Shown piece by piece: positions 3,928-58,265 of a stretch of 61,709 bases of DNA. Within the stretch, counting starts at the first letter, position 1. Every line of letters begins with the position of its first letter. The DNA is taken from positions 1 through 61,709 of the IMG/VR virus record IMGVR_UViG_3300047480_000376. One strand, 5' to 3'. A program made the position numbers and the translations under genes. The notes below the pieces were generated by a model, which worked only from the letters and a program-made list of their open reading frames with translations, had not been told where the DNA came from and searched no databases. The DNA is from a virus.

Positions 3928-3952
3928 GTTATATTCCTTGAGTGTATAGTAT

Positions 3953-3981
3953 ATTATACCACATTTTTTTCTTGCTGTAAA
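3953..3981 (-). promoter_or_regulatory. Sigma70-type promoter, TGn-extended -10 (nucleotide/modification operon)
   Basis: Read on the minus strand: TTTACA at 3981-3976, a 17-base spacer ending in TGTGG, then TATAAT at 3958-3953. Nearly identical over 29 bases to the promoter at 5775-5803. Its -35 abuts the stop of the upstream gene. Confidence 0.85.
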
Positions 3982-10731: not shown

Positions 10732-10831
10732 CTACCGCATCTATACCTTCTCTAGCAGTATCTAAAAAGTCTACAAACCAGAACTCTTCTTTATTATACA
10801 CTCTTGCACTCAACATGTACATAGCCCTCAA
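10631..10831 (-). CDS. Hypothetical protein, 66 residues
   Basis: A small protein with the pattern SARVYNKEEFWFVDFLDTAREGIDAVGVFKKKEDAEYAAKTWEND. The alternation of strands with VGVFKKKEDAEYAAK resembles a small RNA- or protein-binding module whose last helix starts with a DAE turn. It lies between the asparagine-synthetase-like gene (four-base overlap) and the small membrane protein. No function is assigned. The next gene overlaps its 3' half in another frame, so one of the two starts may be later than shown. Confidence 0.55.
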   Translation of the reverse strand: MRAMYMLSARVYNKEEFWFVDFLDTAREGIDAVGVFKKKEDAEYAAKTWENDQMLENMGESIGRKG

Positions 10832-15128: not shown

Positions 15129-15157
15129 ATTATACCACGTTTTATTCATCTTGTACA
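15129..15157 (-). promoter_or_regulatory. Sigma70-type promoter of gp45
   Basis: Minus strand: TGTACA at 15157-15152, a 17-base spacer ending in ACGTGG, then TATAAT at 15134-15129. Its -35 lies in the end of the DUF5664 gene. Confidence 0.8.
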
Positions 15158-15552
15158 CTATATTTTACGTCGTGTTCATAGAGAAACATAAGGCAACATA
15201 ATGCGTGTGCTAAATGGTTCTTACCAGTTTCGGGATCGTTTTGCTCTCCCTCTTTCCATGCCCAAACATGTCTCTGCATGGCATCGAAGTATCGACGCTT
15301 AGAATCAGGCACATATTTCCAATTATCTGGTTCATACTTCTCTGCACCAAATGTTAGGATCTCTGTAGTTGCCTTTAGCGCTAAAGGCGGAAGCAAGCCA
15401 TAACGAAGCTTGCCTCCATCAAATTTACGGCCACCCGTGGTAGCAGTCTGCGATGCCTTTATAGCATCTTGAATTTGTTGTTTTGTGAAATTACCAGGAA
15501 CTGGCGCATCCTGGATTTTAATCTTGCTTTTTCTTTTAATATCTGTTGTCAT
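15142..15552 (-). CDS. dATP/dGTP-diphosphohydrolase-like protein (DUF5664)
   Basis: A 136-residue protein with the hallmark block GGRKFDGGKLRYGLLPPLAL (about 40-59), then FGAEKYEPDNWKYV, RYFDAMQRHVWAWKEGE and ETGKNHLAHALCCLMFL. This pattern matches PF18909 (dGTP_diPhyd_N/DUF5664), an all-alpha pyrophosphohydrolase related to MazG and to MazZ of Z-genome phages. It presumably hydrolyses a deoxynucleoside triphosphate; the substrate is unknown. In a phage with hydroxymethylated DNA it may help balance the dNTP pool. The gene overlaps the Cys-rich gene by 17 bases. Confidence 0.8.
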   Translation of the reverse strand: MTTDIKRKSKIKIQDAPVPGNFTKQQIQDAIKASQTATTGGRKFDGGKLRYGLLPPLALKATTEILTFGAEKYEPDNWKYVPDSKRRYFDAMQRHVWAWKEGEQNDPETGKNHLAHALCCLMFLYEHDVKYSVQDE

Positions 15553-41790: not shown

Positions 41791-42225
41791 TTATTTTAGA
41801 ATGGAACGTGCCATCCAAGCGTGCTTCTTATGTGCAGCCAATCTTGCTGCGCAAAAGTCTGAAATTTGATATTCTTGTGCTTTTTCTGCGGCATCGTATA
41901 GTTGATTATAGAGCGTAATCATGGTATCATTGTTGCTTAAAAAACGTGAAAACATTTGTTCAGCTGATGGAAAATCATCTTCATTATTCACCTTAGATTC
42001 TTGCTTATAAACATCCAGTGATCCTGGAGAGTACTCGCCCAGCTGTCTTATAAATTCTGCCAGTGTATCATTTTGCTCATATAGATCTTCATAAACTCCT
42101 GCCCAAAATGCATGATATTCGTTGAAGTGAGGGCCTTCCACGTTCCAATGAAACATTTGTGTCTTTAAAAATAACGTAAAGTTAGATGCAAGCGTTGTAC
42201 GAAGTGATGTAATAAGTTCAGTCAT
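41791..42225 (-). CDS. dps: Dps-like ferritin-fold protein
   Basis: A 144-residue protein from ATG 42225 (GGAGC eight bases upstream; the first in-frame ATG at 42237 precedes that site). It carries the Dps core KTQMFHWNVEGPHFNEYH (21-38) and YEQNDTLAEFIRQLG (49-63). By spacing, the E. coli ferroxidase residues His51, His63, Asp78 and Glu82 map to His26, His38, Asp53 and Glu57, all present; the Asp67 equivalent is Ala42. Dps oligomers bind iron and DNA and protect against oxidative damage. A T4-type late promoter precedes it. Late expression with gp13-gp14 suggests packaging in the virion or protection of phage DNA, which is inference. Confidence 0.85.
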   Translation of the reverse strand: MTELITSLRTTLASNFTLFLKTQMFHWNVEGPHFNEYHAFWAGVYEDLYEQNDTLAEFIRQLGEYSPGSLDVYKQESKVNNEDDFPSAEQMFSRFLSNNDTMITLYNQLYDAAEKAQEYQISDFCAARLAAHKKHAWMARSILK

Positions 42226-42249
42226 GAATAGCTCCAAGTTGTATAGATC

Positions 42250-42257
42250 TATTTATA
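42250..42257 (-). promoter_or_regulatory. T4-type late promoter box upstream of the Dps-like gene
   Basis: A perfect TATAAATA on the minus strand, 25 bases before the Dps ATG and just after the terminator of the halogenase cassette. Confidence 0.75.
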
Positions 42258-42271
42258 TTTTTCTGCATACT

Positions 42272-42297
42272 AATAAGGCCTCCGAAGAGGCCTTATT
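42272..42297 (-). terminator. UUCG-loop terminator of the halogenase cassette
   Basis: Minus strand: an 11-base perfect stem AATAAGGCCTC/GAGGCCTTATT with a TTCG loop, starting at the stop of the permease gene. It has A-rich and T-rich sides, so it could work in both directions. Confidence 0.88.
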
Positions 42298-43335
42298 TTA
42301 AATCATAAATGTGAATATTCCAGCTACTGTAACTAATAATATAGACCAAGCCCCAAGAGCTGTATAGTATGTCTTTAGCGGAGTGCCAAAATAGGTGTTT
42401 CCTACCATCACGCATTTATGTGTTGGTGACAATAGGTAACCAGCATAGTCTAGCGCAAAGAACCATAAGAAATATTGTGGTCCAAACAGCTGCGACATTA
42501 ATACCGCAATAGCCACGAACTTACCGCTAGATCCCATAAAGAATGAAGCTATAAATCCAAGCGTACTAATTAACAACATGCCTGTAAACAGTGTAGGATC
42601 TAGCATACTGCCTTTAATCATGCCTTCAAAGAATGCTTGTTCAGACTTGAAGTAGTTACCTGCCATGATAGCAACAGCTACTACAATAAGCACATTCCAG
42701 TTGACATAGCCAAGGAGTTTCTTAATATCCCATTGCTGTGTGATAAACATATAGTATAGTGTTAAGAAACCAAAGCATAAGATGAAGTTAACACCTGCAA
42801 TATAAGCTGCGATAGCAGCAAACATTGGCACCACACCCCGTGCAACAGCAGAAATCTTAAAGTTCCCAGGAGTGATTGCTATCTCTTCATCTTTAACTTG
42901 TCTCCAAATATACCAGTAGATGAACACTAAACTTGTGATTAACAAAGGAGCTATCATACCCATCCACGCAGCATACGTTAAACCAAATGCAGCGATTGGG
43001 ATAATAACAGTCTTTTCAAGTGGAGACCACAAGTAATAGTGGTGTGTTGCTAAGTAGTCGACGATTCCCATCTTTTGTCTACCGGGTCCATCCTTCGGAG
43101 CCACAGTATCTAAAAGACCAGCACTAACCACGACACGCCCTTCAATTGGAAGGATGCCGCCGATAGCACTTAGGAGGACGACTACGAACTTGTTGCTTCT
43201 GAATGTATTCTTAATATATGCATAAGCAGGGGCAAAAAGTTGGTACTGTTTTGCTAGTCCTGCAGAGATCATAATAAAGAATACCATCCAGAGATAGTTG
43301 ATGTTCTTTAAAAGAACATTTAGAACAAAGTCCAT
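42298..43335 (-). CDS. Polytopic membrane permease (DUF401-like)
   Basis: A 345-residue protein with about ten hydrophobic segments and short polar loops. The conserved-looking loop GGILPIEGRVVVSAGLLDT (about 59-77) and YLATHHYYLWSPLEKTVIIP (about 94-113) resemble the DUF401 group of integral membrane proteins, whose transport substrate is unknown. A second loop GSSGKFVAIAVLMSQLFGP recalls substrate-binding re-entrant segments. It is the last gene of the overlapping halogenase cassette and sits just before a terminator. Import of a substrate or export of a halogenated product is inference; phage-encoded carriers of this size are rare. Confidence 0.8.
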   Translation of the reverse strand: MDFVLNVLLKNINYLWMVFFIMISAGLAKQYQLFAPAYAYIKNTFRSNKFVVVLLSAIGGILPIEGRVVVSAGLLDTVAPKDGPGRQKMGIVDYLATHHYYLWSPLEKTVIIPIAAFGLTYAAWMGMIAPLLITSLVFIYWYIWRQVKDEEIAITPGNFKISAVARGVVPMFAAIAAYIAGVNFILCFGFLTLYYMFITQQWDIKKLLGYVNWNVLIVVAVAIMAGNYFKSEQAFFEGMIKGSMLDPTLFTGMLLISTLGFIASFFMGSSGKFVAIAVLMSQLFGPQYFLWFFALDYAGYLLSPTHKCVMVGNTYFGTPLKTYYTALGAWSILLVTVAGIFTFMI

Positions 43336-43343
43336 AATTACCT

Positions 43344-43694
43344 CTAAATTACGTTTTTAATAATGACCATCACGCTAATCCACGTCCAAAGGGTGTTGAA
43401 AGCCACCAGTGTTGGTAATAGTTTCTTATTACTTGCCCAAATCAAGGTTAGACTTGTCAGAAGCGTTAAGAAATATAACCACCAAAGTTGTATTCCAAAT
43501 ATTAGACCTGGGACGATAATGATCGCCTTTGCGCCCCATGATAGGGCTTCTACTATATTATAGTCCGTCCAGTATTTTCTGGTAAACCACATACAGTAGC
43601 ATTCTTTTATTGCCTTAAAACCTACATGTCTGTAGACTATAAACAATAAAACGAATGTTATACTACAAGCTACTACTGTATGCAACAATGTCAT
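43344..43694 (-). CDS. Small four-helix membrane protein
   Basis: A 116-residue protein with four predicted transmembrane stretches, starting TLLHTVVACSITFVLLFIVY, then ALSWGAKAIIIVPGLIFGIQLWWLYFLTLLTSLTLIWA and a last LVAFNTLWTWISVMVIIKNVI. It lies eight bases before the permease gene and overlaps the previous one by four. It could be a subunit or chaperone of the permease. I recognise no family. Confidence 0.7.
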   Translation of the reverse strand: MTLLHTVVACSITFVLLFIVYRHVGFKAIKECYCMWFTRKYWTDYNIVEALSWGAKAIIIVPGLIFGIQLWWLYFLTLLTSLTLIWASNKKLLPTLVAFNTLWTWISVMVIIKNVI

Positions 43695-44464
43695 TTAAAT
43701 AAACTCCTAAATGGACACTTCTTCTCATTATGTTTTTCGTAACTTTGTTTTATTTGGTTTCTCTTGAGAGTAAATGTAAAGTTTGAAAGGAACTTCTTTT
43801 TCTTTAGCCATAATTCATCATAAGCATTTTTATCTCTGCAAATGAAGTCGTATTTCTTTTCAGTTAGTGGTATCATATATGCTAGAGGCATACCAGCTTT
43901 AATCGTATATGATCCGTTCAATTTGTGCCAATATAATTGCAAATTAATTGCATCAGATAGTGAAGGATCTAATATTCCTGTACTCTGAGTGAATGTAAAA
44001 TCATCAGAATACGGTATAGGAAGCATTATAAATTTGATGCCCTTTGGAGCAACGATATGCCATGGAGTATTAATCTTGACGATAGATCTTAGTGTGTTTG
44101 GTGGAACTGGTATATTTCTAGCAACTCCATCAAATGAATGATCTTGTACAATAGGTGCAAGTTCTGTCTCATTCATTAACTCTACCATAGTGACGTTTGG
44201 AATAGTCCACTTATAATAGTTTGGATCACCATTGGTTTCTATCATTATATCACACCACGCCGGTATGAAGAAACCATTCTTAAATAAGTCGAATATTCCT
44301 GGACAACGATATGCGTGCGCAAATGTACCACCGTTGGCTGCATTTAATCTTTTAACATAGTCATCTCTACATTCAGAAAACCATCCGTGTTGTACATCTT
44401 TGGCATGTAAAATTGGAGTAGACTCTGCTACTCCATGAATGCTAGAGAAAAATTCAATCTTCAT
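43691..44464 (-). CDS. Cassette protein of unknown function (DUF6065-like)
   Basis: A 257-residue protein. The pattern CPGIFDLFKNGFFIPAWCDIMIETNG (about 54-79), IVKINTPWHIVAPKGIKFIMLPIPY and SDAINLQLYWHKLNGSYTIKAGMPLAYMIPLTEKKYDF resembles a protein family found next to oxygenases and halogenases in marine phages (my memory calls it DUF6065). A beta-sandwich or jelly roll is likely. It lacks an obvious metal triad. It shares four-base overlaps with both neighbours. The role may be to bind the small substrate or its carrier. Confidence 0.6.
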   Translation of the reverse strand: MKIEFFSSIHGVAESTPILHAKDVQHGWFSECRDDYVKRLNAANGGTFAHAYRCPGIFDLFKNGFFIPAWCDIMIETNGDPNYYKWTIPNVTMVELMNETELAPIVQDHSFDGVARNIPVPPNTLRSIVKINTPWHIVAPKGIKFIMLPIPYSDDFTFTQSTGILDPSLSDAINLQLYWHKLNGSYTIKAGMPLAYMIPLTEKKYDFICRDKNAYDELWLKKKKFLSNFTFTLKRNQIKQSYEKHNEKKCPFRSLFK

Positions 44465-44976
44465 TTATAATCAATCACCAATATACTTCGCTTCACTTTA
44501 CATGGCCTGCTTGAATGCATTAACCAACCTGGAATATATATCCAATCTCCAGGGTTTAATGTCTTAACTTCAAAACCTGCAGTTGGACGAGTGTCGTATA
44601 ACAATAGATCACCGCTTCCAACTATGTTTATAATCATTGTGCCGCTACTACTCCTATGAATATGAGGATCTTGATATCCCCCAACATCATAGTCGACTAC
44701 CCAGCTACTCTTATCTTTTGTATGATAGTACGCATCAAACTGTGACACGATGTGTTTATGCCATTCTGGTTGACTATCGTCAGATTTAAATGCATATTGC
44801 CACCCATTCATGGTCGTACTATAGACACTAACATCATCTTCTAACAGTTTTTGTATTTCAATCCACTTATTGAAATCACTTACTATTTTTTCATTTAGAT
44901 CTACAGTACCATGAAATATATTGACTGCGAAAAGATCTTCACTCTGGCTTGTAAACATATGGGATATCAATGTCAA
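44461..44976 (-). CDS. 2OG-Fe(II) oxygenase/cupin-fold protein
   Basis: A 171-residue protein with a double-stranded beta-helix: YDVGGYQDPHIHRSSSGTMIINIVGSGDLLLYD (about 96-128), then PGDWIYIPGWLMHSSRP (142-158). Probable iron ligands are His105, His107 and His154, followed by Arg163 in the position that binds 2-oxoglutarate's carboxylate. An Asp/Glu second ligand is not clear, so a halide-binding (halogenase-type) or cupin centre is also possible. The N-terminal 90 residues are helical. It overlaps the next gene by 38 bases. Confidence 0.7.
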   Translation of the reverse strand: MTLISHMFTSQSEDLFAVNIFHGTVDLNEKIVSDFNKWIEIQKLLEDDVSVYSTTMNGWQYAFKSDDSQPEWHKHIVSQFDAYYHTKDKSSWVVDYDVGGYQDPHIHRSSSGTMIINIVGSGDLLLYDTRPTAGFEVKTLNPGDWIYIPGWLMHSSRPCKVKRSILVIDYK

Positions 44977-45547
44977 ATACTATATTAATCCGCTGTCTAT
45001 CAGACATGTTTGGTTCAACCTCATGCGGTACCCAAGAAGGCCATAGCACTAAGTCACCATCTTTAGGCAGAAAAAAGAAATCTCTAGTGTAAGGAGAAAA
45101 ATCGCTGCAATCATTTAATATATTTGCAGGATTCGTCAAGATTAAACGTCCAGTATCAGTGGCTTGTAAGTAATATACACAAGAGAAGATAGATTTTTTA
45201 TGTGAATGATATACATTCCTTGCATATTTTTCGTTTATATTACACCAACTACCAACCTGTATAGGTGATTCTTCAGTGGGTAGTTTTATTCTACTTCCAG
45301 GTTGATTAGCATAATATTCGAATGCTTCATGCGTAATGTGAGACACCGCATTATTTAACCACTCACAATCAGTGATTGGATATGAATATCTCCAGCATCC
45401 TTCATTATTTGTAAGAGAATTTATATCCTTTTTTCCAGAAGCTTTTAAATCCAATAAACGGTCAATCAGTTCTTGCCTTTGTTCTGGTGTACCTACGTTA
45501 GCATAACTGAATAAGTCAGCCCTAAACAGCGTGTGTGGTTCTCTCAT
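44939..45547 (-). CDS. 2OG-Fe(II) oxygenase (prolyl-hydroxylase-like)
   Basis: A 202-residue protein of the 2OG-FeII_Oxy_5 type. The WCNINEKYARNVYHSHKKSIFSCVYYL block (101-127) carries the first His pair (His114, His116), and the C-terminal LVLWPSWVPHEVEPNMSDRQRINIVFDI block has His175 and a probable 2OG-binding Arg184 or Arg186. This pattern is common in marine phages. It overlaps the halogenase by 26 bases and the second oxygenase by 38. The substrate is unknown; a peptide or amino-acid derivative fits the neighbouring enzymes. Confidence 0.8.
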   Translation of the reverse strand: MREPHTLFRADLFSYANVGTPEQRQELIDRLLDLKASGKKDINSLTNNEGCWRYSYPITDCEWLNNAVSHITHEAFEYYANQPGSRIKLPTEESPIQVGSWCNINEKYARNVYHSHKKSIFSCVYYLQATDTGRLILTNPANILNDCSDFSPYTRDFFFLPKDGDLVLWPSWVPHEVEPNMSDRQRINIVFDIDIPYVYKPE

Positions 45548-47051
45548 ACCAATCCTTCAAAAACTCATAATGATTTGGGAAATATTCTATAGCATTATCT
45601 ATCTCGGCAGTTTTTGTCTTAATATAGTATTCAGCATACTTAGTTTCTTCAGGCGACAATACGTGTGTTTGTGCATCATCATATACACCGTTTGCGTGTA
45701 ACATACTAAACCAATGACCAGTATGGAAACCAGATGTTTTATCATCTAAATAAAAGCGTCTATGCAAGTTTGGATAGAATTGACTAAAGATTTGTTGGAT
45801 ATATGATGGAGCATCTTCGATCTTTTGTGATCTAATCTCTTTCCAAAACGGCGTATCATCCCTATCGCTATAATGATAGTGTGCCCATACAAAAGCAATA
45901 ATCTCTACAACCATATTAATATATGAAGCATTAAATGCATTCATTAAGTTATCATTCCAAATTCCGCTATGATGGTTTAAACCATTAGTCAGTGCTTCAA
46001 CAATCTTAGTGGTAAATGTAATTCCAGTAGCTTCTAATGGTTCTACAAACCCCGCAGATAAACCAACAGCAATAACATTCTTATATGCAACCTTTTCAGA
46101 TGCACCACATCTCATCTTAAGGTGGCGTGCTTTAGCATCATATTCACCAATAGTGTCTCTCAATTCTTTCTCAGCATCTTCTGGCGATATATGCTTTGAA
46201 GAATACACATAACCATTTCCAATCTGCTTAAATGTTGGAATAGTCCATCTCCAACCAGCTGTCATAGTAGTAGCTTTGGTATATGGATGACATTCATTAT
46301 GCGGATCTTTATATTGTGTTGGCATAGCTACAGCGCTATCACACGGCAATATATTAGAGATATCCATAAATGGAACTTTTAATTCCTTATTGATTAATTT
46401 AGCCTCAAAGCCTGTACAATCAATAAAGAGATCAGCAGTATGTTTTCTGCCTTGTTCATCTAATAGGTACTCAATGCCGTCGACATTACTCTTTATTTCA
46501 GTAATCTTAGTATCATAATATGTGATTCTATCTTTAATCAAATCACTGATGGTGTCTAATATATCAAACGCCGAAAAATGTACTGCTCCCCAATCTTTAT
46601 AATCGCGCAATGACATAGCATGATCATAACCATCCAATTTAGGGCTTTTGTTTGCCATCGCTAATCTATACGCTGGTAACCAGTCTCGCCATTCATTTTT
46701 TGGCTTATCGATAAAATAGTCGTGCGCGTATAGATTTGGACCCATAATATGATTTTCAACGAAATCATTATCAACAAAATATGGATCTTTATTCCAGCCA
46801 CTCAGTAAAACGCCATACTTAAATGCAGCCTGCGATGGCTTCATCCACTGTTTTGGCTCTAAACCTGCATCATGTAAAAATCTAGAAGTAAATGGTTGAG
46901 TTCCCTCACCAACACCGATTGGTCCTAATGCTTTACTTTCGATTAGTGTTATATTACATGGAAAATTAATATTTTTTGACATATAAGCAGCGGTCAACCA
47001 TCCGCTTGTACCACCGCCAAAAATTGTAATGTTCTTTATTTTCTTAATCAT
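45522..47051 (-). CDS. Flavin-dependent tryptophan-halogenase-like protein
   Basis: A 509-residue FAD-binding protein. GGGTSGW (12-18) is the dinucleotide motif, AFKYG has a Lys at 78 (PrnA Lys79, which forms the chloramine or positions HOCl), GWRWTIP lies at 266-272 (the WxWxIP hallmark that blocks monooxygenase activity), and GFVEPLEATGI at 334-344 holds the catalytic Glu region. All signature residues are therefore present, so activity is plausible. The substrate is unknown: free Trp, a peptide or another aromatic. It is in the centre of an overlapping operon (four- and 26-base overlaps). Similar genes occur in cyanophages. Confidence 0.92.
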   Translation of the reverse strand: MIKKIKNITIFGGGTSGWLTAAYMSKNINFPCNITLIESKALGPIGVGEGTQPFTSRFLHDAGLEPKQWMKPSQAAFKYGVLLSGWNKDPYFVDNDFVENHIMGPNLYAHDYFIDKPKNEWRDWLPAYRLAMANKSPKLDGYDHAMSLRDYKDWGAVHFSAFDILDTISDLIKDRITYYDTKITEIKSNVDGIEYLLDEQGRKHTADLFIDCTGFEAKLINKELKVPFMDISNILPCDSAVAMPTQYKDPHNECHPYTKATTMTAGWRWTIPTFKQIGNGYVYSSKHISPEDAEKELRDTIGEYDAKARHLKMRCGASEKVAYKNVIAVGLSAGFVEPLEATGITFTTKIVEALTNGLNHHSGIWNDNLMNAFNASYINMVVEIIAFVWAHYHYSDRDDTPFWKEIRSQKIEDAPSYIQQIFSQFYPNLHRRFYLDDKTSGFHTGHWFSMLHANGVYDDAQTHVLSPEETKYAEYYIKTKTAEIDNAIEYFPNHYEFLKDWYERTTHAV

Positions 47052-48730
47052 TTTTTAATTACCAAAATATATAAACCATTCCACCACTCTCTAGGATTTT
47101 CTTCAGAGTTTAGTATCATTTTTTCATAAATCACTTTAGCATCCAATTCATTCAAGCCATCTCTTGCGCCTTGAACAACTGGTTCCCAATTAGCGTCATC
47201 AAATATTAAGATAGCTTCATTAGCTAAAACTGGCCAATAATATTTAATAGCATCTGCAGTAGATTTAGCATCATGAGGGCCATCGTACATGAACATGTCA
47301 ATCTTAGAATCGATATCTTGTAAATTTACATTTAACATATCTTCTCTAAATACTTTTACATCAGATTTTCCAACATATGGAGATAAGTTTGCAATAAACT
47401 TATCATAATCATTTGCTTCTGTTGTCATGTCTTCTCTAGCAGGTTGAATCTGTTCTTCCCACTTGTCTATTAGATATGCCTTTATTGGGTTATTATACAT
47501 TACAGCAGCTGCTGTAGCACCCAAATAACTGCCGACTTCTAAGTAAGCACCACAATTTTTAGCAAGTGAATTTAAAAGAGTTTGTACTCTAGAACTAGTT
47601 AAACCGCTAATGTTGATATTAACCTTTGGAATTCCACTCTTAGCTATACAATCAACTACATGTTTAGTTAAAGATGTATAGTCGTACTCATCCTTTTTCT
47701 CTTCGATCTTATCACAGTACTGACATTCCCAACAATCGAATTTACAATTCTTAATCTTATCACGCCAGATTTTAATTGGTTTTCCAGTAAGTTGTGCCTT
47801 CTCTAAGAAGTCTTCGAAGTTGTCGTCAAGTATTTCTTGTCCTGCAACATATCGTTCAATCTTACGCATGGTCTCGCCTAAGCGATTAATGCTTTCTCTT
47901 CCATGCATCTTAAATACATCAATACCTAAATTGAAATATTCGTCCCAATCTTCTTTCCACGGAGAAAAATTTGCCGTTTTTAGGTATGTTGCAGGATCTT
48001 CGATTTCCCACTTTGGACAACTAATTCTACTGATAGGAGAATTAAAGTATGATGGTTCTTTGTCTGTCCTAGAATTATTATATTCGAAGTGTTCATCCAT
48101 CATATGACACTCGCCTAAACAACCTTCATTAGCCAATAGACTATACTGAATATCTTTACCTAAGTTTACTTTAATCCACTTCTTAGCATCTTGTAATCTG
48201 ATTAATGCATCTCTGTCACGCATTAGATCACGATCTAAGTTTATGTAGTCAAATCCTTCTTTAGCTAATGCTACTACTTCAGCAGGTCTTCTAACATTAC
48301 GAAGGATAGTATTCTTAACAAATAATTCAGGGAATGCAGCTTTAATTTGTCCAGTTGCCATCCAATGTGTGTGAGGAATCGTCGCAACACGAATACCTGC
48401 ATCATATAACGGTTTAAAGTTAACGATGAAAGTATCTAAATTAGTTTGGGTTGGAGGAACTTGGATATTGTTGAATGTGGCAGAAGCCTTAATTCCCAAG
48501 TATTTTTGAATGTTCAATGCAGTTTCTATAAGATTAACTCTGTCTTGATTGAACATGATGACGTCACCCATTGCATCTTGATTGAACGGGCTTATTCTAG
48601 ATGTGAAGTATACATCGGCTATCCAGTCTTTATATTCTGACAACCAATGATAAAATGCCGTAAACTGTTCTTGCGAAAGTTTAGGATTGATAGGAATACT
48701 AAAAATTTTTCTCGGAGTCACTACTCTCAT
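47048..48730 (-). CDS. U32-peptidase-like/methyltransferase fusion protein
   Basis: A 560-residue protein. Residues 1-345 resemble the U32 family (UbiU, RlhA, YegQ-like): barrel-type strands with AGIRVATIPHTHWM (111-124), EGFDYINLDRDLMRD and SLLANEGCLGECHMMDEHF (197-215), then Cys238. A second cluster C-x3-C-x2-C-x2-C at 329, 333, 336 and 339 suggests an Fe-S or zinc site. Residues 350-560 are a class-I SAM methyltransferase: AYLEVGSYLGATAA (395-408), DMFMYDGPHDAKSTADAIKYYWP (478-500) and AILIFDDANW (506-515). U32 proteins perform oxygen-independent hydroxylation with Fe-S help. It is the first gene of the cassette. The fusion is unusual. Confidence 0.8.
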   Translation of the reverse strand: MRVVTPRKIFSIPINPKLSQEQFTAFYHWLSEYKDWIADVYFTSRISPFNQDAMGDVIMFNQDRVNLIETALNIQKYLGIKASATFNNIQVPPTQTNLDTFIVNFKPLYDAGIRVATIPHTHWMATGQIKAAFPELFVKNTILRNVRRPAEVVALAKEGFDYINLDRDLMRDRDALIRLQDAKKWIKVNLGKDIQYSLLANEGCLGECHMMDEHFEYNNSRTDKEPSYFNSPISRISCPKWEIEDPATYLKTANFSPWKEDWDEYFNLGIDVFKMHGRESINRLGETMRKIERYVAGQEILDDNFEDFLEKAQLTGKPIKIWRDKIKNCKFDCWECQYCDKIEEKKDEYDYTSLTKHVVDCIAKSGIPKVNINISGLTSSRVQTLLNSLAKNCGAYLEVGSYLGATAAAVMYNNPIKAYLIDKWEEQIQPAREDMTTEANDYDKFIANLSPYVGKSDVKVFREDMLNVNLQDIDSKIDMFMYDGPHDAKSTADAIKYYWPVLANEAILIFDDANWEPVVQGARDGLNELDAKVIYEKMILNSEENPREWWNGLYILVIKK

Positions 48731-48746
48731 CCTATAAAATAATATG

Positions 48747-49472
48747 TTACAACTCTATTTTTACTGGCTCACTGACTTCCCACTTAAGTTGAAATACACT
48801 GGGATCTATAGTATCTATAGTAGGTCCAGAATCTAATGATTCTTCAGTTATAGGACCAAGGGTTTTTCTCTGTTTTACTGGTTTAGTGATATCCCACTTT
48901 TCACCTTCTTCAGTTATTCCATGTTTAGTCTCTGGATCCACTTTTATAAACGCATAGCCAAAATGATTATGCATAATTACATGACAATCATAATTAGTCT
49001 TGCATGCTTCTATAGATTCCTTTATAGATTGCACCTTTTTAGTGTATCGTAATTTATTCTTTTCTGTTAAAGAATTAAAATCTTTTTCAACATAATGCAA
49101 TAATATTGCTTTTATGTATTTCACAGAGTTTAATTCGTCCTCATCAGTAATATGATAAGTAAATTTATCTCTTGGAAGTAATACTCTATTTTTTGGAATT
49201 TTAAAGGAATCTTTTAACCATTCAAAAGGACCTTGTTCAACCTTAATGTTGATAGTTCTTCGTTGGTTTAGATCGATATGTGAGAACCATGAAGCTCGAG
49301 CAACTTCCTCAGGAATTTCAATAGCATTAGCTTGTATTTCTTGAGGAAGTTCAGATATCTCACACTCTACTTGATATGTTTCATATATCCAAAAGCTCGA
49401 TATGATTTTATGTTTAACATCTTTAAACAGCTTAAGATGATATTCGTTTTTCTCAAACGTTATATATTTCAT
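48747..49472 (-). CDS. Hypothetical virion-region protein, 241 residues
   Basis: A protein from ATG 49472 (MKYITFEKNEYHLKL); the earlier in-frame codon at 49517 lies well inside the upstream gene, whose stop is only 20 bases away from the chosen start. A likely jelly-roll or beta-rich N-terminus (HKIISSFWIYETYQVECEI) is followed by DLNQRRTINIKVEQGPFEWLKDSF and a helical ELNSVKYIKAILLHYVEKDFNSL. The C-terminus has a Thr/Pro-rich end. No family is recognised. It separates the baseplate-type gene from the cassette by 16 bases. Confidence 0.6.
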   Translation of the reverse strand: MKYITFEKNEYHLKLFKDVKHKIISSFWIYETYQVECEISELPQEIQANAIEIPEEVARASWFSHIDLNQRRTINIKVEQGPFEWLKDSFKIPKNRVLLPRDKFTYHITDEDELNSVKYIKAILLHYVEKDFNSLTEKNKLRYTKKVQSIKESIEACKTNYDCHVIMHNHFGYAFIKVDPETKHGITEEGEKWDITKPVKQRKTLGPITEESLDSGPTIDTIDPSVFQLKWEVSEPVKIEL

Positions 49473-50367
49473 TGAATTCTTTTGGTAAAGTTGCACTAGG
49501 AAGATTCTTTTCCTCATGCGTATCTAAATTAAGTTTAGCGCTTGCAGCCTTGATTAGTTCTAAGTCAGCATTAATTGCAGCATTAATAAGTTGAGGATCT
49601 AGCGAACCAATATATTGCATTTTTCCATCATTAGTAAGTTGCAATGCTTTAGCAGCTTCTTGACGTATCGTAACCTGCTGTTGTTCTACAGCTAAATTGA
49701 CAGTGTGCGCTAGCGATAATGCTTCTTCACGTTGCTTTGGTTCTAACTGCATGATAGCGTCTAAGTTACCTGAACCAATTCTACCATATGCACAAAGATC
49801 CATCGCTGCTTGTCTAGCTAATCGTACAGTCCAGTATTCTTTCTCATACAGTTCTTCTTCCTCTGTACCTAATATTGCTGTCAGTGGTCTACCATCCGGC
49901 GTTTTTCCATGTGGACTTGCCAAGAACTCTTCAACTAGTTCTAAGAAAAATTGGCGTTCAATATAAAGATCTTTTACACGAGTTCTAGTTGATTGAACAC
50001 CATTAGTTTTTCTCTTGACTTCAAGGTCAAGCAACTCTTTTCTAAGTGGATCTGTTTCAGCATCTCTATCACGTTCAGCCATCTTTAATTCAATCTCTAC
50101 CTTTTTCAACTCATATTCTTGAGCTTCTAAGGTATCTTCGCGAGCCCTTAACTCGAGCAAGTATTGCCTTATGATGTGGAATGGAGTATATTCTGCTTGA
50201 CCCACGAACCACTTAAGCTTAAACTTTGGAGTACTCCAATAGTTATTATAAGAAAATTCAATGAGTTCTTGAGATTTTTTAGGAATTAGAGAAACGTCAG
50301 TAGAGATTTTCTTTTTTGGAAAGAAATTCTCATACTTATACTTGCCGTATTCTACAACATCAGTCAT
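49453..50367 (-). CDS. Coiled-coil virion-associated protein of marine T4-like type
   Basis: A 304-residue protein: KWFVGQAEYTPFHIIRQYLLELRAREDTLEAQEYELKKVEIELKMAERDRDAET (about 53-106) is a strong coiled coil, then VKDLYIERQFFLELVEEF and YWTVRLARQAAMDLCAYGRIGSGNLDAIMQLEP. This layout is familiar from conserved proteins in marine T4-like phages, but its role (perhaps a baseplate or long-tail-fibre connector) is unproven. It overlaps the next gene by 20 bases. Confidence 0.65.
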   Translation of the reverse strand: MTDVVEYGKYKYENFFPKKKISTDVSLIPKKSQELIEFSYNNYWSTPKFKLKWFVGQAEYTPFHIIRQYLLELRAREDTLEAQEYELKKVEIELKMAERDRDAETDPLRKELLDLEVKRKTNGVQSTRTRVKDLYIERQFFLELVEEFLASPHGKTPDGRPLTAILGTEEEELYEKEYWTVRLARQAAMDLCAYGRIGSGNLDAIMQLEPKQREEALSLAHTVNLAVEQQQVTIRQEAAKALQLTNDGKMQYIGSLDPQLINAAINADLELIKAASAKLNLDTHEEKNLPSATLPKEFNEIYNV

Positions 50368-50410: not shown

Positions 50411-51658
50411 TTAGTTTCTCCAGAAACAATGTCCTGAGGAAGCTCCAGCGTGTCCTTGTACTTCTGTACTTAATTGAGCACCAGCATCAGTAGCATATAT
50501 TAGTCTACCGCATCTATTGTTTTGTCCAATGCTATCGTCATATTGCCCTAGCATATATCCACGGTCTTGTGACATGCCATGGTTTTCTTCGCCGCAGTTA
50601 GCCCACATCTTTGAGATTGTACTATAAGACTCAGTCGTAATATTAGTCTTTCTATAGTTATATCCGCCGGCGTATGATCCTTCGTTGCCGCCATAACCAA
50701 AACCAGTTTTAGCAGGCATGCCCTTTTGTTGACCGTGAGCACCTGCAGCTACGATACCAGTCGCTTGTGCTTCTGTAGAAAAATCAATCTTCGCAGTATA
50801 GCTGGTTCCTTGACCAGCCCACCAAATACCTTTATTTTCTCCAGAAATGCCAGAAGCATGTCCACCGTTACCGCCACCCAATGTTGCAAATGAGTTTGTG
50901 CTAGCAGTAAATCTAAATGTGTTGCTTACACCTTCACCTGTTGTAAATGATCTATTACGATCAGGTGCAAACACTGTACCAGTGTTTGCACAAGAATAAC
51001 CCGGAGCACCTACACCATTCACTTTAACTTCTGTACGCATATTGAATGTAGTTGTGCTGTTGCCATTCCAAACGTGACCTCTATTATCGTCACACATACC
51101 AGATTTGTAATGGTAGTTATCAATATTTCCATCACCTAAGTTAGTACAAGTCTCAGTAGAACGAGGGAATCTATTAACGTTAGACCATAGTGTACTATCT
51201 TTATAACCACCAGCCATATACAATGTCGTGATGATTTGGCGATATAGCCATGGTACTGATAACGTAACGCTATATGATCTATCGGAAGTAGTCTTAGCGC
51301 CTGGTGAATTGTCTGAAGCACGAATAGTAAAGTTATACACTTGACCGTCTGTGTTTATACCTGACGCTGAATATGTTCCAGTGATTTGACCAGTGCTTGA
51401 GTTCAGTGTAAAACCTGGAGGAAGAGAACCAGATACTAGTGAGTAAGTAATACCATTATGCCATGGGTCAAATACTTGTCTTTGACCTGAAATGTTGTTT
51501 GAGGTTGTATTAGCAATATCAACACCGCTACCACTTACAGTTGCAGTACCTAACGAACCAGCTGGAGCAGATGAAGCAGTATCATTGATAGCGCCTGGAT
51601 GGAAACCACCTCTACCGCTATTTCTGTTATTTCCGCCTTTAGTACCAAAGAATGCCAT
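50411..51658 (-). CDS. Tail fibre with Ig-like and kelch-like repeats (paralogue A)
   Basis: A 415-residue protein starting MAFFGTKGGNNRNSGRGGFHPGA. A He_PIG-type Ig-like domain lies at about 68-132 (GITYSLVSGSLPPGFTLNSSTGQITGTY). From about 135, a beta-propeller-like part has repeated WSNVNRFPRSTETCTNLG, FAPDRNRSFTTGEGVSN, GENKGIWW and AKTGFGYGGNEG units. The C-terminus is ASSGHCFWRN. This is probably a receptor-binding protein. It is paralogous to the next gene and shares a 54-base stretch with one mismatch. Confidence 0.8.
   Translation of the reverse strand: MAFFGTKGGNNRNSGRGGFHPGAINDTASSAPAGSLGTATVSGSGVDIANTTSNNISGQRQVFDPWHNGITYSLVSGSLPPGFTLNSSTGQITGTYSASGINTDGQVYNFTIRASDNSPGAKTTSDRSYSVTLSVPWLYRQIITTLYMAGGYKDSTLWSNVNRFPRSTETCTNLGDGNIDNYHYKSGMCDDNRGHVWNGNSTTTFNMRTEVKVNGVGAPGYSCANTGTVFAPDRNRSFTTGEGVSNTFRFTASTNSFATLGGGNGGHASGISGENKGIWWAGQGTSYTAKIDFSTEAQATGIVAAGAHGQQKGMPAKTGFGYGGNEGSYAGGYNYRKTNITTESYSTISKMWANCGEENHGMSQDRGYMLGQYDDSIGQNNRCGRLIYATDAGAQLSTEVQGHAGASSGHCFWRN
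51134..51187. repeat. Direct repeat copy in fibre paralogue A
   Basis: 54 bases shared, with one mismatch, with 52391-52444. It codes for the NRFPRSTETCTNLG region of both fibres and marks a recent duplication or gene conversion. Confidence 0.85.
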
Positions 51659-51661
51659 TTA

Positions 51662-53302
51662 TTAATCTCTCCAGAAGCAGTGGCCAGATGAAGCTCCACC
51701 GTTACCTTGTACCGATGTACCTAACGTTGCAACTGCATCACTTGAATATATTATTCGGCCGCATATATTGTTTTGTGCTCCGTTATACATTCCTAAGCAA
51801 TATCCACGATCTTGTGACATGCCATAGTTTTCTTCACCCGAGTCTGATAACATTTTTGTTATCGTGCCGTATGTTTCATTGGCGATATTTATTTTGCGAT
51901 GGTTATATCCACCGTTGTATGTACCTTCATTACCACCGTAACCAAAGCCGGTCTTAGCTGATAAACCTTTTTGCTGACCATGTGCACCGCCAGCCATAGA
52001 GATAGTAGCTTGTGCTTCAGTCGAGAAGTTAATAGATCTATTAGCGTCTCCCCAATAAATTCCTTTATTTTCACCAGATACTTGACAAGCATGGCCACCT
52101 TGACCACCTCCAAGAGTTGCAAACGCTTCAGTGGATGCAGTGAATCTAAACATATTACTTACGCCGTCACCAGTAGTGTATGATCTATTGCGATCTGGTG
52201 CAAAAGCCGTAGCTGTATCTGAGGCGTTATATCCAGGACCACCGGGGTTTGTAGCCTTAGATTCAGTACGCATGTTAAATTTGGATGTCGTATTTAAGTC
52301 TACAGCATGACCACCGCCAGCACCGAAAACATATCCAGCGTTATCACTACACATACCAGATTTGTAGTTATAGTTGTCAATGTTGCCGTTACCTAAGTTA
52401 GTACAAGTCTCCGTAGAACGAGGGAATCTATTAACGTTAGACCACGCAGATGAGTTTTGATAGCCACCAGCCATGTATAATGTTGTGATGATTTGTCTAT
52501 ATAACCATGGTACTGATAACGTCACAGTATATGTACGATCAGTGAATCCCTTTGCGCCTGGAGAGTTATCAGTAGCACGCACAGTGAATGTGTATACTTG
52601 ACCATCTGTATTAACTCCTGATGCAGTATATGTACCAGTTATTTGACCAGTAGTTGCATTTAACGTAAAACCTGGAGGTAGTGAACCAGATGAGATTGAA
52701 TATGTGATAGGGCCATTGTGAAATGGGTCGATCGTACCACGCTGTCCTGAAATACGCGTTGAACTTGTATTTGCTATCGTATCACCAGTACCATTTACTA
52801 CTGTAGTACCAAGAGTACCGCTTAACTCTGAAACTGGATTATCAAATGACCAAATATACATCGCAGAGTTGTTATCATATGGATATGTACCTGGGCTAAC
52901 ATCTCTATAAAAAACTGTAAATTCTGCACCATAACCTGATATTAAACTTAATCCAGTGTCACCAGCGGTATAAGCGCTCGTATCTACTGCATTCCATGCA
53001 GCGCTTCTTATCAAGTAAACTCTACAAGGTTGAGTTACAGTAAATGTACCGCTATCAGTCTCATTAATGACAGTAGAAGTGACTTTACCAGGTCCAGTTA
53101 AGTATGCTGGTAGATTTTGATATACAGCCCATGGACTTTGACCAGTTGTGATCCTTAAATCTAACCCATTAACTGGAGACATAAGTTCAGTGCCTGTACT
53201 AACAGACACTGGATAGTTGACGTCAACTGGACCAACACCGGGATGGAATGCACCCCTCCCGGTATTTCTATTACTTCCACCTGTAGACCCGTAAAATGCC
53301 AT
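51662..53302 (-). CDS. Tail fibre with Ig-like and kelch-like repeats (paralogue B)
   Basis: A 546-residue protein starting MAFYGSTGGSNRNTGRGAFHPGVGP. It is paralogous to paralogue A along its C-terminal 360 residues (He_PIG at about 197-262, then the beta-propeller-like part), ending ASSGHCFWRD. It has an additional N-terminal region of about 130 residues (FTVTQPCRVYLIRSAAWNAV, SLISGYGAEFTVFYRD). Both genes are only three bases apart. The two copies probably diversified for different receptors. Confidence 0.8.
   Translation of the reverse strand: MAFYGSTGGSNRNTGRGAFHPGVGPVDVNYPVSVSTGTELMSPVNGLDLRITTGQSPWAVYQNLPAYLTGPGKVTSTVINETDSGTFTVTQPCRVYLIRSAAWNAVDTSAYTAGDTGLSLISGYGAEFTVFYRDVSPGTYPYDNNSAMYIWSFDNPVSELSGTLGTTVVNGTGDTIANTSSTRISGQRGTIDPFHNGPITYSISSGSLPPGFTLNATTGQITGTYTASGVNTDGQVYTFTVRATDNSPGAKGFTDRTYTVTLSVPWLYRQIITTLYMAGGYQNSSAWSNVNRFPRSTETCTNLGNGNIDNYNYKSGMCSDNAGYVFGAGGGHAVDLNTTSKFNMRTESKATNPGGPGYNASDTATAFAPDRNRSYTTGDGVSNMFRFTASTEAFATLGGGQGGHACQVSGENKGIYWGDANRSINFSTEAQATISMAGGAHGQQKGLSAKTGFGYGGNEGTYNGGYNHRKINIANETYGTITKMLSDSGEENYGMSQDRGYCLGMYNGAQNNICGRIIYSSDAVATLGTSVQGNGGASSGHCFWRD
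52391..52444. repeat. Direct repeat copy in fibre paralogue B
   Basis: Pairs with 51134-51187 (one mismatch in 54 bases). Confidence 0.85.
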
Positions 53303-53315
53303 CTTTTACTACCTA

Positions 53316-56300
53316 TTAACCGTAAGAAGACATCTGACCTAACACTACCCAAGCACCAGCAGCAGTGCGGATCAATGTGAAGACCACGACGTCTGTTTTG
53401 TTTGCTTGTGGTGTAGGCTGAGTGTTACCTGCCCATCTAATCGTTTGTGCTGAACTGTCAATCTGTACAGCAGTTGGTAAGTATGCAGTACCACCCTGTG
53501 CTAACACTAGCGTAATCGTACTAATTCTGTTAACAGTAGTTGGTACGTTAGTGAAGTTTGCTGTAAAGTTTGTAGAGATACCTGTGTGATAGAACACGCT
53601 CGATGCATTAAAGTCATGTGTTACTGTACCAGTAGCAGATGCTTTTGGATCCATGACTTCAAGGATCGATTCAACAGTTGTCACACCGCCAACAGATAAG
53701 TTGTTATTAACTGTTGTTGTACCAGAAGATGCACCAATACTGATTGTAGTTGCTGCACCACCGATATTTAAAGTGGTTGCATTTGTATTGAATACAGTTG
53801 CTGTACCAGTAGATGTAGTAGTAATATCGCCGCCGTTGACTGCTAAGTCACCAGAAGTTGTGAAGTTACCAGTTGATGTAATAGCACCTACACTTAATGG
53901 TGCAAATATTGCTGAACCAATATTAACTGTAGCTGTTGGAGCCAAGCCACCTAAGTTTGTAAATAGCTTAAATGCGCCATCGCTTGCATCTCTTACTAAA
54001 CCGCTGTATGTTGGTACGAATACTGGAGAATTATCTGAGTGCGAAGACGCTGTAGTACCGTTAGCACCACGAGTTACACCAGTGAATTCAGTTGCAGTCT
54101 TACCTGTATAAGTAACTTCTTCTGAACCAATTACCAAATTACCAGATGCTGGGAACGCAGTAGTATCATCAACAGTAATTGTTGTTGCAGAATTTGTGAT
54201 CGCGCCATTTAGTAATGTTGAAATAGAACTAAATGTACCATAGAAACCTAAGTCGATCAAGTCACTTGGGTTACCTGCACCCATACGAATCATTGGGTCA
54301 GAAACAGCAAGTGTTGTTGTTTCTAGAGATGAACCAGAACCACCGATAGAGATCGTACCAGTAATCGCAACGTTACCACCAACGTTTAAGTTACCTAATA
54401 GACCCATACCTCCGCTAACACGAAGAGCACCAGTTGTAGTAGATGTTGATTCTGTATTTGCTAAGACTTCAACACCAGCTGCTTTACCTGGGCGACTTTC
54501 GCCAATGATACGCAATCTTTCATTACCAGCGTCAAATCCATTTGAGAAGATAATGATGTCGTTTTGTGCACCATTTTCACTAGTACCAATCAATAAGTTA
54601 CCGCTATTTGATGTTCCAACTGGTGCTGACATGAAAATGTAACCAGTTGAAGCGCCAGTAATTGTGAATTCTGGGTCATTGTAGTTTTCAGATGTAATAC
54701 CCATATCAATCCAACCTGAATCATTGTCACCGTTGGATGTGTACATGATCATGTCTGTAGAAGCTTCTGTACCATTACTGAAGTTCTTAAGAGCGAACTG
54801 AACGAATGAGTTTGCGTGACCAGTGAATACACCTGAAGCATCAGTTAGGCCAACATAACCTGCTGAAACTGAGTCATCGATAGTTAACATACGAGCAGTA
54901 ATAGCACCGTCTGTACCCTGGTAGATCGCACCACCGTAAGCTTCGATTGTACCTTCAAGGTCTAAGTCACCTTGAATACCAACACCGCCTTTAACTCTTA
55001 AAGCGCCTGTGTATGGGTTTGTAGCAGCAGTATCAATAGAGATTTCAAGACCAGCAGGAGCTAAGTCTTGTGTAAACGAAGTACTTGCTAACGTCTGTTG
55101 TTTATTAACTGTATATGTACCAGTTGAACCTGCAGTACCAGTCAATTGAGCTATGATTACTGTACCAGCAATGATACCAGCAGCATTGATTGTGTGTTCA
55201 CCGTCAAATAAGATTGTACCAGATGAAACTGCAGTAACTGTTAGTGTTGTACCTGAAATAGAACCTGTGAACATCGCACCCATGCGCGCTTCACCGACGA
55301 TACGCATCTTCTCAGCATCTACGTTGGTCGTAATGTCGAAACCACCGGTACAGAATACGATGTCGTTCTCTGTACCGGTGTCATTCGTTGCAATAACTAA
55401 GTTACCTGGACCAGTTGCACCAGCTGGGGCTGACATGAAGATGTAACCATCATTTGCGTCAGTGATACCATATCCTGAAGAAGCATCAAATCCTGAAGAT
55501 GTGATACCCATATCAACCCAACCTGAATTGTTGTCACCGTTATCTGCATACAAGATGATGTCTGTTGATGCAGCAGCTCCGTCATTTGTGTTCTTAAATG
55601 CGATCTGACCGAAACCATCGATGTCTTTAACAGCTAAGAATCTAACGTCAGTTAGACCTGTATAGCCTGAGAATTGATAATCATCTTGTAGGTATAGTTG
55701 TGCATTTTCACCGATAAATATTGCGGATGATTCTTGTCCAGTGTCTTGACCAACTAAAACGTGATTATCTACGTGAATAGATTCTACACCAGCGTGTGAA
55801 GATGTTGACCATTCAGGCTCTGTACCATCAGCATTAACAACTAATATTGGTTGTACTTGAACTGATGTACCTTCATGATCTGTATGAACTGGACCTAATG
55901 CACCGATTGGTAAACGCTGTGCGCCTGATGCATCACGATAGACCAAGTCGCCTTGCGTAGTAACAATAGCAGAAGCTGAACCGTCAGCAAACGGCTCCCA
56001 ATATTCTTCAGCTAAGTCAGCGCTAGGTTGATTTAATGAAGAAGCTGTATGTGCTTGTACACAAATGTATGTGCTAGTATTTTGCTTAGCTAATTCATTT
56101 AATTTGTAATATGTTCCGCTTGTCCAATTACCTGTCCAAGCAAAACCTGTACTAAATAGTTCCCAGTGATCTGTATCATATGGTGTCTCTGTAGTGGCAT
56201 CAGCAGTACACAAGTACTGGTTGCCGCCCCAACGAACTAAGTCGCCAGTCTTATATGGTAAAATACCAGAACCAGAAGGCTGCCATGCACCGCGGTTATT

Positions 56301-56783
56301 TAAACCTTCAACGAATGGTCTCCACACATCAACGTCTGATGTAGGAACAACGTCAGAGTTTGCCTCTAATGCATAGTATGTGTAACCACCATATGAAACT
56401 ACGTCACCGATTTGATATTCAACTGCTGAATCCCAAGACTCTTCTACTTCAACACCTTTAGCGAATATATTCCAATAACTTGGATTTAGTATAGAAGTTG
56501 CTGTGTGTGCAGTTGTACAGATGTATGTAGAACCGCCATATGCAACGATGTCATTAACTTTATAGTATGTTGCGTTAGTGTATACGTTCTTCCACTCGAA
56601 GCCATCGTTCATGACTTCCCATTTAGCAGAATCTGAATACAAGGTAGCTCCAGCAACGTGGCCTTGTACACAGACATAAGATTTTCCGCCATGGCGCACG
56701 ATGTCATCTTTTACATACGTAGCAGAAGCAGTCCACTGACCTTTCCATACGAACTTAAGTCTACCTAGTTTAAACTCTGCCAT
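53316..56783 (-). CDS. Modular long fibre with ChtBD3-like repeats
   Basis: An 1155-residue protein. The first 265 residues have about five to six carbohydrate-binding-like repeats with the core W-x-Y-x2-x-D-x-V-x-x-GG-x-Y-x-C (for example KDDIVRHGGKSYVCVQGH, VNDIVAYGGSTYICTTAH and IGDVVSYGGYTYYALEAN). The middle has two similar units NGD(N)(N/D)SGWIDMGITS and GYIFMSAP, followed by GALRVKGGVGIQGDL and GALRVSGGMGLLGNL, which form beta-helix-type shafts. The C-terminus (about 1040-1155) carries TATVFNTNATTLNIGGAATT and a knob-like end. It is a receptor-binding or long tail fibre. Confidence 0.85.
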   Translation of the reverse strand: MAEFKLGRLKFVWKGQWTASATYVKDDIVRHGGKSYVCVQGHVAGATLYSDSAKWEVMNDGFEWKNVYTNATYYKVNDIVAYGGSTYICTTAHTATSILNPSYWNIFAKGVEVEESWDSAVEYQIGDVVSYGGYTYYALEANSDVVPTSDVDVWRPFVEGLNNRGAWQPSGSGILPYKTGDLVRWGGNQYLCTADATTETPYDTDHWELFSTGFAWTGNWTSGTYYKLNELAKQNTSTYICVQAHTASSLNQPSADLAEEYWEPFADGSASAIVTTQGDLVYRDASGAQRLPIGALGPVHTDHEGTSVQVQPILVVNADGTEPEWSTSSHAGVESIHVDNHVLVGQDTGQESSAIFIGENAQLYLQDDYQFSGYTGLTDVRFLAVKDIDGFGQIAFKNTNDGAAASTDIILYADNGDNNSGWVDMGITSSGFDASSGYGITDANDGYIFMSAPAGATGPGNLVIATNDTGTENDIVFCTGGFDITTNVDAEKMRIVGEARMGAMFTGSISGTTLTVTAVSSGTILFDGEHTINAAGIIAGTVIIAQLTGTAGSTGTYTVNKQQTLASTSFTQDLAPAGLEISIDTAATNPYTGALRVKGGVGIQGDLDLEGTIEAYGGAIYQGTDGAITARMLTIDDSVSAGYVGLTDASGVFTGHANSFVQFALKNFSNGTEASTDMIMYTSNGDNDSGWIDMGITSENYNDPEFTITGASTGYIFMSAPVGTSNSGNLLIGTSENGAQNDIIIFSNGFDAGNERLRIIGESRPGKAAGVEVLANTESTSTTTGALRVSGGMGLLGNLNVGGNVAITGTISIGGSGSSLETTTLAVSDPMIRMGAGNPSDLIDLGFYGTFSSISTLLNGAITNSATTITVDDTTAFPASGNLVIGSEEVTYTGKTATEFTGVTRGANGTTASSHSDNSPVFVPTYSGLVRDASDGAFKLFTNLGGLAPTATVNIGSAIFAPLSVGAITSTGNFTTSGDLAVNGGDITTTSTGTATVFNTNATTLNIGGAATTISIGASSGTTTVNNNLSVGGVTTVESILEVMDPKASATGTVTHDFNASSVFYHTGISTNFTANFTNVPTTVNRISTITLVLAQGGTAYLPTAVQIDSSAQTIRWAGNTQPTPQANKTDVVVFTLIRTAAGAWVVLGQMSSYG

Positions 56784-58257: not shown

Positions 58258-58265
58258 TATTTATA
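58258..58265 (-). promoter_or_regulatory. T4-type late promoter box next to the 57970-58251 start
   Basis: A perfect TATAAATA on the minus strand, only six bases before the ATG. The transcript would be leaderless or nearly so. Confidence 0.6.

Follow-up and report, generated by a model that had tools for sequence, protein, structure and literature searches.

Gene content of the locus

The window analyzed here is a 61.7-kb virus fragment (IMG/VR record IMGVR_UViG_3300047480_000376) from a T4-like myovirus of bacteria, an assignment based on the major head protein, terminase, sheath, T4-type polymerase, and gp13 and gp14 homologues that it encodes. Between positions 48730 and 42298, seven minus-strand open reading frames (ORFs) follow one another with successive gaps or overlaps of -4, -26, -38, -4, -4, and +8 bases and specify, in order, a fusion of a U32-like barrel with a methyltransferase (U32MT), a flavin-dependent halogenase (HAL), a prolyl 4-hydroxylase (P4H)-like oxygenase, a second protein of the 2-oxoglutarate (2OG) family, a DUF6065-like protein (D65), a small membrane protein (TM4), and a permease (PERM). 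An earlier note on this DNA had described the seven genes, with the same coordinates and spacing (-38 to +8), as an apparently complete tailoring pathway acquired as one block and exporting its product through its own transporter; the coordinates and spacing are all confirmed, and the pathway is weighed below. Compared with near relatives, all seven genes have ratios of nonsynonymous to synonymous substitution rates (dN/dS) well below 1, indicating purifying selection, and they are therefore not a chance run of ORFs. A megablast search of the locus against GenBank phages returned no matches.

HAL (45522..47051, minus strand; 509 amino acids) belongs to the Trp_halogenase family (PF04820; E value of 8.4e-94, 315 bits against a cutoff of 21). 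Its catalytic motifs are intact, as first reported for Lys78, GWRWTIP, and EPLE: GGGTSG lies at residue 12, GWRWTIP at 266, and EPLE at 337-340 (with glutamate E340), and an alignment of up to 33 homologues shows no variation at Lys78, either EPLE glutamate, Gly266, Trp267, or Pro272. The highest score is against the tryptophan 5-halogenase PyrH (PDB accession number 2wet; 243 bits, E value of 6e-71), followed by PrnA (227 bits) and VirX1 (179 bits), a promiscuous viral iodinase. There is also weak superfamily similarity to QhpG, whose substrate is a protein tryptophan. HAL shares its Pfam family and catalytic motifs with the cyanophage halogenases (prnA/T4-GC_212 and the VirX1 of Syn10, PDB accession number 6qgm), which often likewise adjoin tail fiber genes, a D65 homologue, and 2OG oxygenases, but it is nearer to PyrH than to VirX1 and falls in a clade separate from the latter (support of 100/100, 19 rows). 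Halogenases and 2OG oxygenases have long been described in cyanophages (PMC3037559, PMC2984593, PMC10452541), and the virion proteome of one cyanophage, S-SM1, has been analyzed (PMC3037559). Three relatives carry an additional halogenase, of the Sf-CH1a/VirX1-type clade, within this cassette (L015, 13609-14964, minus strand; L016, 8622-9977, minus strand; L017, 9051-10622, plus strand), in two of them on the opposite strand.

U32MT (47048..48730, minus strand; PHROG_1458), a homologue of T4-GC_354 of cyanophages, joins a U32-like TIM barrel (about residues 1-345) to a class I S-adenosylmethionine (SAM) methyltransferase (about 380-560) that matches Pfam Methyltransf_24 (8e-10). In its AlphaFold (AF2) model (predicted local distance difference test [pLDDT] score of 81), the barrel resembles the U32 protein Mk0906 (5d88; Foldseek E value of 3.3e-6, TM score of 0.65 by target), with other TIM barrels matching too, and the C-terminal half has TrmR (5zw3; E value of 4e-6) among its best matches, mixed with other Rossmann methyltransferases; a TrmR profile matches weakly (E value of 0.048), and a PDB sequence search with U32MT alone found nothing. 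Like the peptidase U32 family (TrhP, RlhA, and UbiU/UbiV), U32MT has a K-x-x-G-R-type motif (FKMHGRE) and an N-E-x-C...C segment with barrel cysteines. Unlike that family, it is fused to a methyltransferase, and its seven invariant cysteines (204, 208, 238, 329, 333, 336, and 339) are spaced CX3C...C plus CX3CX2CX2C rather than in the four-cysteine [4Fe-4S] pattern CX6CX15-16C...C. PF01136 (peptidase U32) failed as proof of identity, being silent even at E values of ≤1 in the 11 gene-carrying records searched, so the name U32 rests on fold and motif. TrhP and RlhA carry out prephenate-dependent hydroxylation, and TrmR (YrrM), a tRNA 5-hydroxyuridine O-methyltransferase, methylates the hydroxyl left by TrhP (PMC6599085); by analogy, hydroxylation followed by O-methylation would be the natural expectation for U32MT, although here the TrmR-like half is Methyltransf_24 by Pfam and is joined to the barrel.

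Relatives of U32MT are encoded in at least 588 viral stretches. Barrels without the methyltransferase were found in contigs labeled bacterial: in L085 (1-4316), a stand-alone U32-like domain has an RTX-repeat protein on one side and a type I secretion ATP-binding cassette (ABC) transporter on the other, all on one strand, and this contig offers a bacterial context for testing a surface protein substrate; in L086 (24-13804), a Syntrophaceae contig, a U32-like gene has a second, weakly similar gene and a giant repeat protein nearby; and in L084, a stand-alone U32-like barrel lies near a dCTP deaminase-like gene. L086 also carries GCN5-related N-acetyltransferases (GNATs), a sulfotransferase-like gene, and CysD/CysN-like genes. 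The contig L082, labeled Dehalococcoidia, has a gene string of fiber genes and U32MT like that of cyanophage P-HM2 and in all likelihood comes from a cyanophage and was mis-binned.

The P4H-like protein (44939..45547, minus strand), assigned from Pfam and motifs, is a 2OG-Fe(II) oxygenase of the 2OG-FeII_Oxy_5/TIGR02466 type, scoring above the cutoff for PF13759 (1e-17; 64.4 bits against 27) and slightly under that for TIGR02466 (56.6 bits against 62.5). Its H114xH116...H175...R186 residues are invariant in all 57 homologues, the middle ligand being His, against the Asp of classical P4Hs, and its solved relatives 3bvc (E value of 9e-19) and 2rg4 are uncharacterized. The next gene (44461..44976, minus strand; PHROG_81) had been called a cupin or 2OG-type enzyme; Pfam cupin matches fall below the cutoff, whereas profile comparison with the P4H-like gene (hhalign E value of 2.7e-9) and the invariant H105xH107...H154...R163 of its alignment place this double-stranded beta-helix protein in the 2OG family. 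Its TTG start is doubtful, since one close relative lacks those residues and begins at a downstream ATG, a start with which the 38-base overlap would shrink. Like those of HAL, the active sites of the oxygenases are not degraded; degraded sites would, according to the earlier note, have undone the single-pathway idea.

D65 (43691..44464, minus strand; PHROG_7084) is, in its AF2 model (pLDDT of 88), dUTPase-like in fold, with dCTP deaminase and dUTPase as its top Foldseek matches (E values of about 5e-4). It keeps segments resembling motifs 3 and 4 (GILD and AGTPLAQ), but motifs 1 and 2 are not recognizable, and we therefore do not class it as a dUTPase. All profile scores lie below curated cutoffs: PF00692 matches two homologues weakly (19.3 bits at best, against 22), and DUF6065 (PF19541), the family to which it had been likened, gains weak support from a match to one homologue (E value of 0.005; 16.7 bits against 26.6) and none to the window protein. 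An hhalign comparison with one dCTP deaminase sequence gave no match, one genome scan detected no D65 in cellular genomes, and no paper on DUF6065 turned up in the literature searched.

At its 3' end, past PERM, the cassette is followed by a terminator-like UUCG hairpin (about 42271..42296, minus strand; 11-bp stem, AATAAGGCCTC-TTCG-GAGGCCTTATT, folding energy of -17.6 kcal/mol), as had been noted; a consensus terminator scanner skipped it because its T-run is weak. The neck genes said to flank the cassette do follow, gp14 and then gp13, but its direct neighbor is a Dps-type ferritin gene (41791-42257), whose true start is probably an ATG at about 42225 and which has the T4-type late promoter-like motif TATAAATA directly upstream, past the hairpin. 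Near the cassette, this motif occurs only at 42250, before Dps, and at 58258, upstream of the fiber array, and 11 of its 12 matches in the window are on the gene strand; the placement is consistent with late cotranscription. The cassette is not closed upstream: gene u1 (48747..49517, minus strand) ends 16 bases before U32MT and overlaps u2 (49453..50367, minus strand; PHROG_1409) by 65 bases. Beyond u2 lie the fiber-like gene FIBa (50411..51658, minus strand; PHROG_1417), which has a He_PIG Ig domain and is a candidate substrate, FIBb (51662-53302) of the same PHROG, and a tail fiber gene (53316-56783).

Co-inheritance and stepwise assembly

To establish which genes travel together, we used two scans, with U32MT and D65 as their respective anchors, which are less biased than a comparison of near relatives; the resulting counts are not phylogenetically independent. 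Gene u1 is present in all 62 U32MT-anchored loci and u2 in 61, and FIB, u2, and u1 stand together beside U32MT in 61 of 62 (37 of 38 after dereplication), a neighborhood also found in cyanophages P-HM2, S-H25, and metaG-MbCM1. Among the 36 loci with a halogenase, the P4H-like gene is present in every case and D65 in 35, against 2 and 3, respectively, of the 26 loci without one. On the U32MT tree, the halogenase is gained once (one change in 98% of bootstrap trees), and given this single gain and the single 19-member halogenase clade, the two genes have descended together from that point. As judged from these gene contents and the tree, U32MT, HAL, the P4H-like oxygenase, and D65 are a co-inherited tailoring unit, and to this extent the proposal of a single pathway survives.

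In near relatives (82 to 92% halogenase identity), all seven genes recur in order wherever contigs reach (about ten cases), this order being what the earlier note had proposed to look for in marine phage contigs; scattering, which it had named as contrary evidence, is absent from these relatives and appears in distant cyanophages, mainly for the permease. Across the wider set, the FIB-u2-u1-U32MT string has the greatest breadth, in cyanophages and freshwater phages, with the permease added in some; the P4H-like gene and D65 come next, then the halogenase and second 2OG protein, and finally TM4, which is confined to the nearest relatives. These nested subsets indicate that the block was built stepwise and was not acquired as a single piece.

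U32MT and the halogenase occur apart in the GenBank phages tested, in which all 3 U32MT-bearing phages lack a halogenase and all 10 halogenase-bearing ones lack U32MT; the window locus thus joins two gene sets found apart in cyanophages. One corresponds to the T4-GC_351 to T4-GC_354 string of cyanomyoviruses (P-HM2 and others), in which homologues of FIB, u1/u2, and U32MT, annotated only as hypothetical or "sericin-like," are likewise adjacent, and in P-HM2 gp13 comes next, with no halogenase, P4H-like gene, or D65 between it and U32MT. The other corresponds to the halogenase clusters beside tail fiber genes in syn9, S-RIM44, P-TIM40, Sf-CH1a, and S-CREM1, which lack U32MT and contain D65 and/or 2OG genes; in S-RIM44 and Sf-CH1a the cluster reaches gp13/gp14, as in the window. 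D65 directly follows the halogenase in all 14 GenBank phage records that have D65.

The permease behaves differently. PERM (42298..43335, minus strand; PHROG_14035) is of the DUF401/TIGR00529 type, exceeding the cutoff for DUF401 (PF04165; 27.1 bits against 24, E value of 3.5e-6) and falling far under that for TIGR00529. It is preceded by TM4 (43344..43694, minus strand), and a simple hydropathy scan of the membrane genes gave many overlapping segments, leaving the four and ten helices first counted provisional. The two share a higher GC content at third codon positions (GC3; 0.39 for PERM and 0.41 for TM4) than the other five genes (0.27 to 0.30). Permeases are not enriched with the halogenase (7 of 36 halogenase-positive loci, 13 of 26 halogenase-negative ones) and also occur beside replication, heat shock, or other genes with no enzyme cassette. 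Where a gene lies downstream of the permease, it has a signal peptide-like start and outer membrane character in 22 of 52 places (L001-L003, L005, L008-L011, L015, L022, L024, L026, L029, L035, L040, L045, L048-L050, L060, and L038/L039), its products (clusters OMPa, OMPb, OMPc, and c127) being beta-barrel, Phenol_MetA_deg-like, or TonB-plug-like. The window has no such gene after PERM. Within the close group, permeases without the outer membrane protein gene (the window, L004, L006, and L020) are 84 to 94% alike and 68 to 74% alike to those followed by it, a two-way split not seen in gp14, the halogenase, or TM4. PERM is, then, a separable unit, swapped together with the outer membrane protein gene, and we reject it as the default product exporter. 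The pair of permease and outer membrane-like gene occurs even where the halogenase cassette is absent, and the literature searched yielded no paper in which a DUF401 permease of phages is paired with an outer membrane protein. A PDB sequence search with the TonB-like gene found nothing, and a reading of the locus as an iron uptake system, from the adjacent Dps, the TonB-like proteins, and the Fe enzymes, was dropped as too thin.

Candidate substrates

We read the locus as a tailoring module built stepwise at the host recognition (fiber) locus of a T4-like phage, with virion or fiber proteins as its substrate, a reading to which we give a probability of about 0.4. The U32-like domain would hydroxylate and the fused methyltransferase would O-methylate the product, in the manner of TrhP and then TrmR on tRNA; HAL would add chlorine or bromine, with FADH2 from the host; the 2OG enzymes would hydroxylate; and D65, with its dUTPase-like core, may be a noncatalytic or substrate-binding partner. 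The targets would be side chains of virion or fiber proteins from the genes just upstream, modified before assembly so as to change receptor binding or resistance to attack, and the permease, with or without its outer membrane partner, would have a separate function at the same locus. We favor these proteins over a free small molecule because the genes lie behind FIB-u2-u1 in 61 of 62 loci; the comparable cyanophage enzymes at the fiber locus and the placement of TATAAATA upstream of the fiber array and after the cassette also speak for virion or fiber modification. Support comes as well from L085, in which the U32-like domain again adjoins a repetitive surface protein, and from the weak similarity of HAL to QhpG. 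A fiber substrate, one of those that the earlier note had offered, thus fits the gene context best. Several points weigh against it: FIB and u1 show no halogenase-linked Trp/Tyr signature, and u2 has just two such columns, both Tyr; HAL is nearest to halogenases of free tryptophan; the cyanophage halogenases of Syn1, P-SSM2, HTVC008M, and S-H35 lie elsewhere; FIB is a virion component by prediction; gene position alone does not prove a substrate; and the modeled fold of D65 and the resemblance of U32MT to U32 proteins and TrmR would suit nucleotides or RNA equally well. The fuller claim, that the phage halogenates, hydroxylates, and O-methylates its own fiber proteins posttranslationally, using a new U32-like hydroxylase-methyltransferase fusion and a dUTPase-fold accessory protein, we regard as doubtful.

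Tailoring of a free small molecule, whereby HAL would chlorinate or brominate tryptophan or another host metabolite that the 2OG enzymes and U32MT would hydroxylate and methylate, is in our judgment unlikely. The resulting compound would act on the host or on competitors, moved by the permease or not, and the scores of HAL, best against PyrH and then PrnA and only thereafter VirX1, agree with such chemistry, as does the published suggestion that cyanophage prnA serves protective antibiotic synthesis (PMC2984593, PMC9964418). However, the cassette contains neither a scaffold-forming enzyme nor a precursor peptide, the permease is uncoupled from HAL, and the invariant linkage to FIB-u2-u1 would be left unexplained. 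In syn9 and S-CREM1, a small ORF next to D65 was considered as the precursor of a ribosomally synthesized and posttranslationally modified peptide (RiPP) but was rejected, since its product is charged and helical-looking and has no precursor-like core. Least probable of all is the version of the earlier note, in which the seven genes, acquired together, form a complete pathway that exports its product through PERM: their contiguity and shared order in about ten near relatives accord with it, but it conflicts with the stepwise growth of the block, with the restriction of TM4 to the nearest relatives, and with the permease's distribution, its two types tracking the outer membrane gene, and its GC3, and the cassette, having neither a scaffold-making enzyme nor a precursor peptide and no flavin reductase, is not complete.

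Improbable, too, is a role in nucleotide or RNA modification, in which U32MT would make 5-hydroxy- and then 5-methoxypyrimidines, the handling of the nucleotide would fall to D65, and the base, in tRNA or phage DNA, would be decorated further by HAL and the 2OG enzymes. The halves of U32MT do resemble a U32 protein and TrmR, from the enzyme families that make mo5U34 (PMC6599085). The best structural matches of D65 are dUTPase and dCTP deaminase, and the window encodes a thymidylate synthase-like enzyme, a dCMP deaminase, and a uracil-DNA glycosylase (UDG)-like protein. Yet the cassette lies in the virion gene region, apart from these nucleotide genes (1-6 kb of the window), the TIM barrel and Rossmann matches are broad, and the profile comparison of D65 with dCTP deaminase failed. 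We also know of no flavin-dependent halogenase that acts on bases.

As far as the literature searched extends, the coupled four-gene set, the halogenase clade, the fusion of U32-like and TrmR-like domains, the dUTPase-like fold of D65, and the unit of permease and outer membrane protein are new. To our knowledge, no natural substrate has been assigned to phage halogenases since cyanophage prnA and VirX1 were described; fixed partners (U32MT, the P4H-like oxygenase, and D65) and a fixed neighbor (FIB-u2-u1), seen in many environmental T4-like phages, give a more confined field in which to look for one. Should fibers prove to be the target, this would be an unprecedented chemical layer of phage host recognition.

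Nucleotide-related genes elsewhere in the window

Positions 1-5754 possibly hold a DNA base modification module, with MazG and "nucleotide modification associated" domains. Among its genes are those of the UDG-like protein (1994-2410), the dCMP deaminase (2407-2853), and the thymidylate synthase-like enzyme (2840-3529), and two large ORFs without assignment (2-859 and 844-2013). A 373-amino-acid protein (10828-11949) has weak similarity to ATP pyrophosphatases of the LarE and TilS types and no PHROG or Pfam match, and a dATP/dGTP pyrophosphohydrolase (15142-15552) belongs to PF18909 (E value of 5e-33), whose members have in other settings been connected with changes in nucleotide pools.

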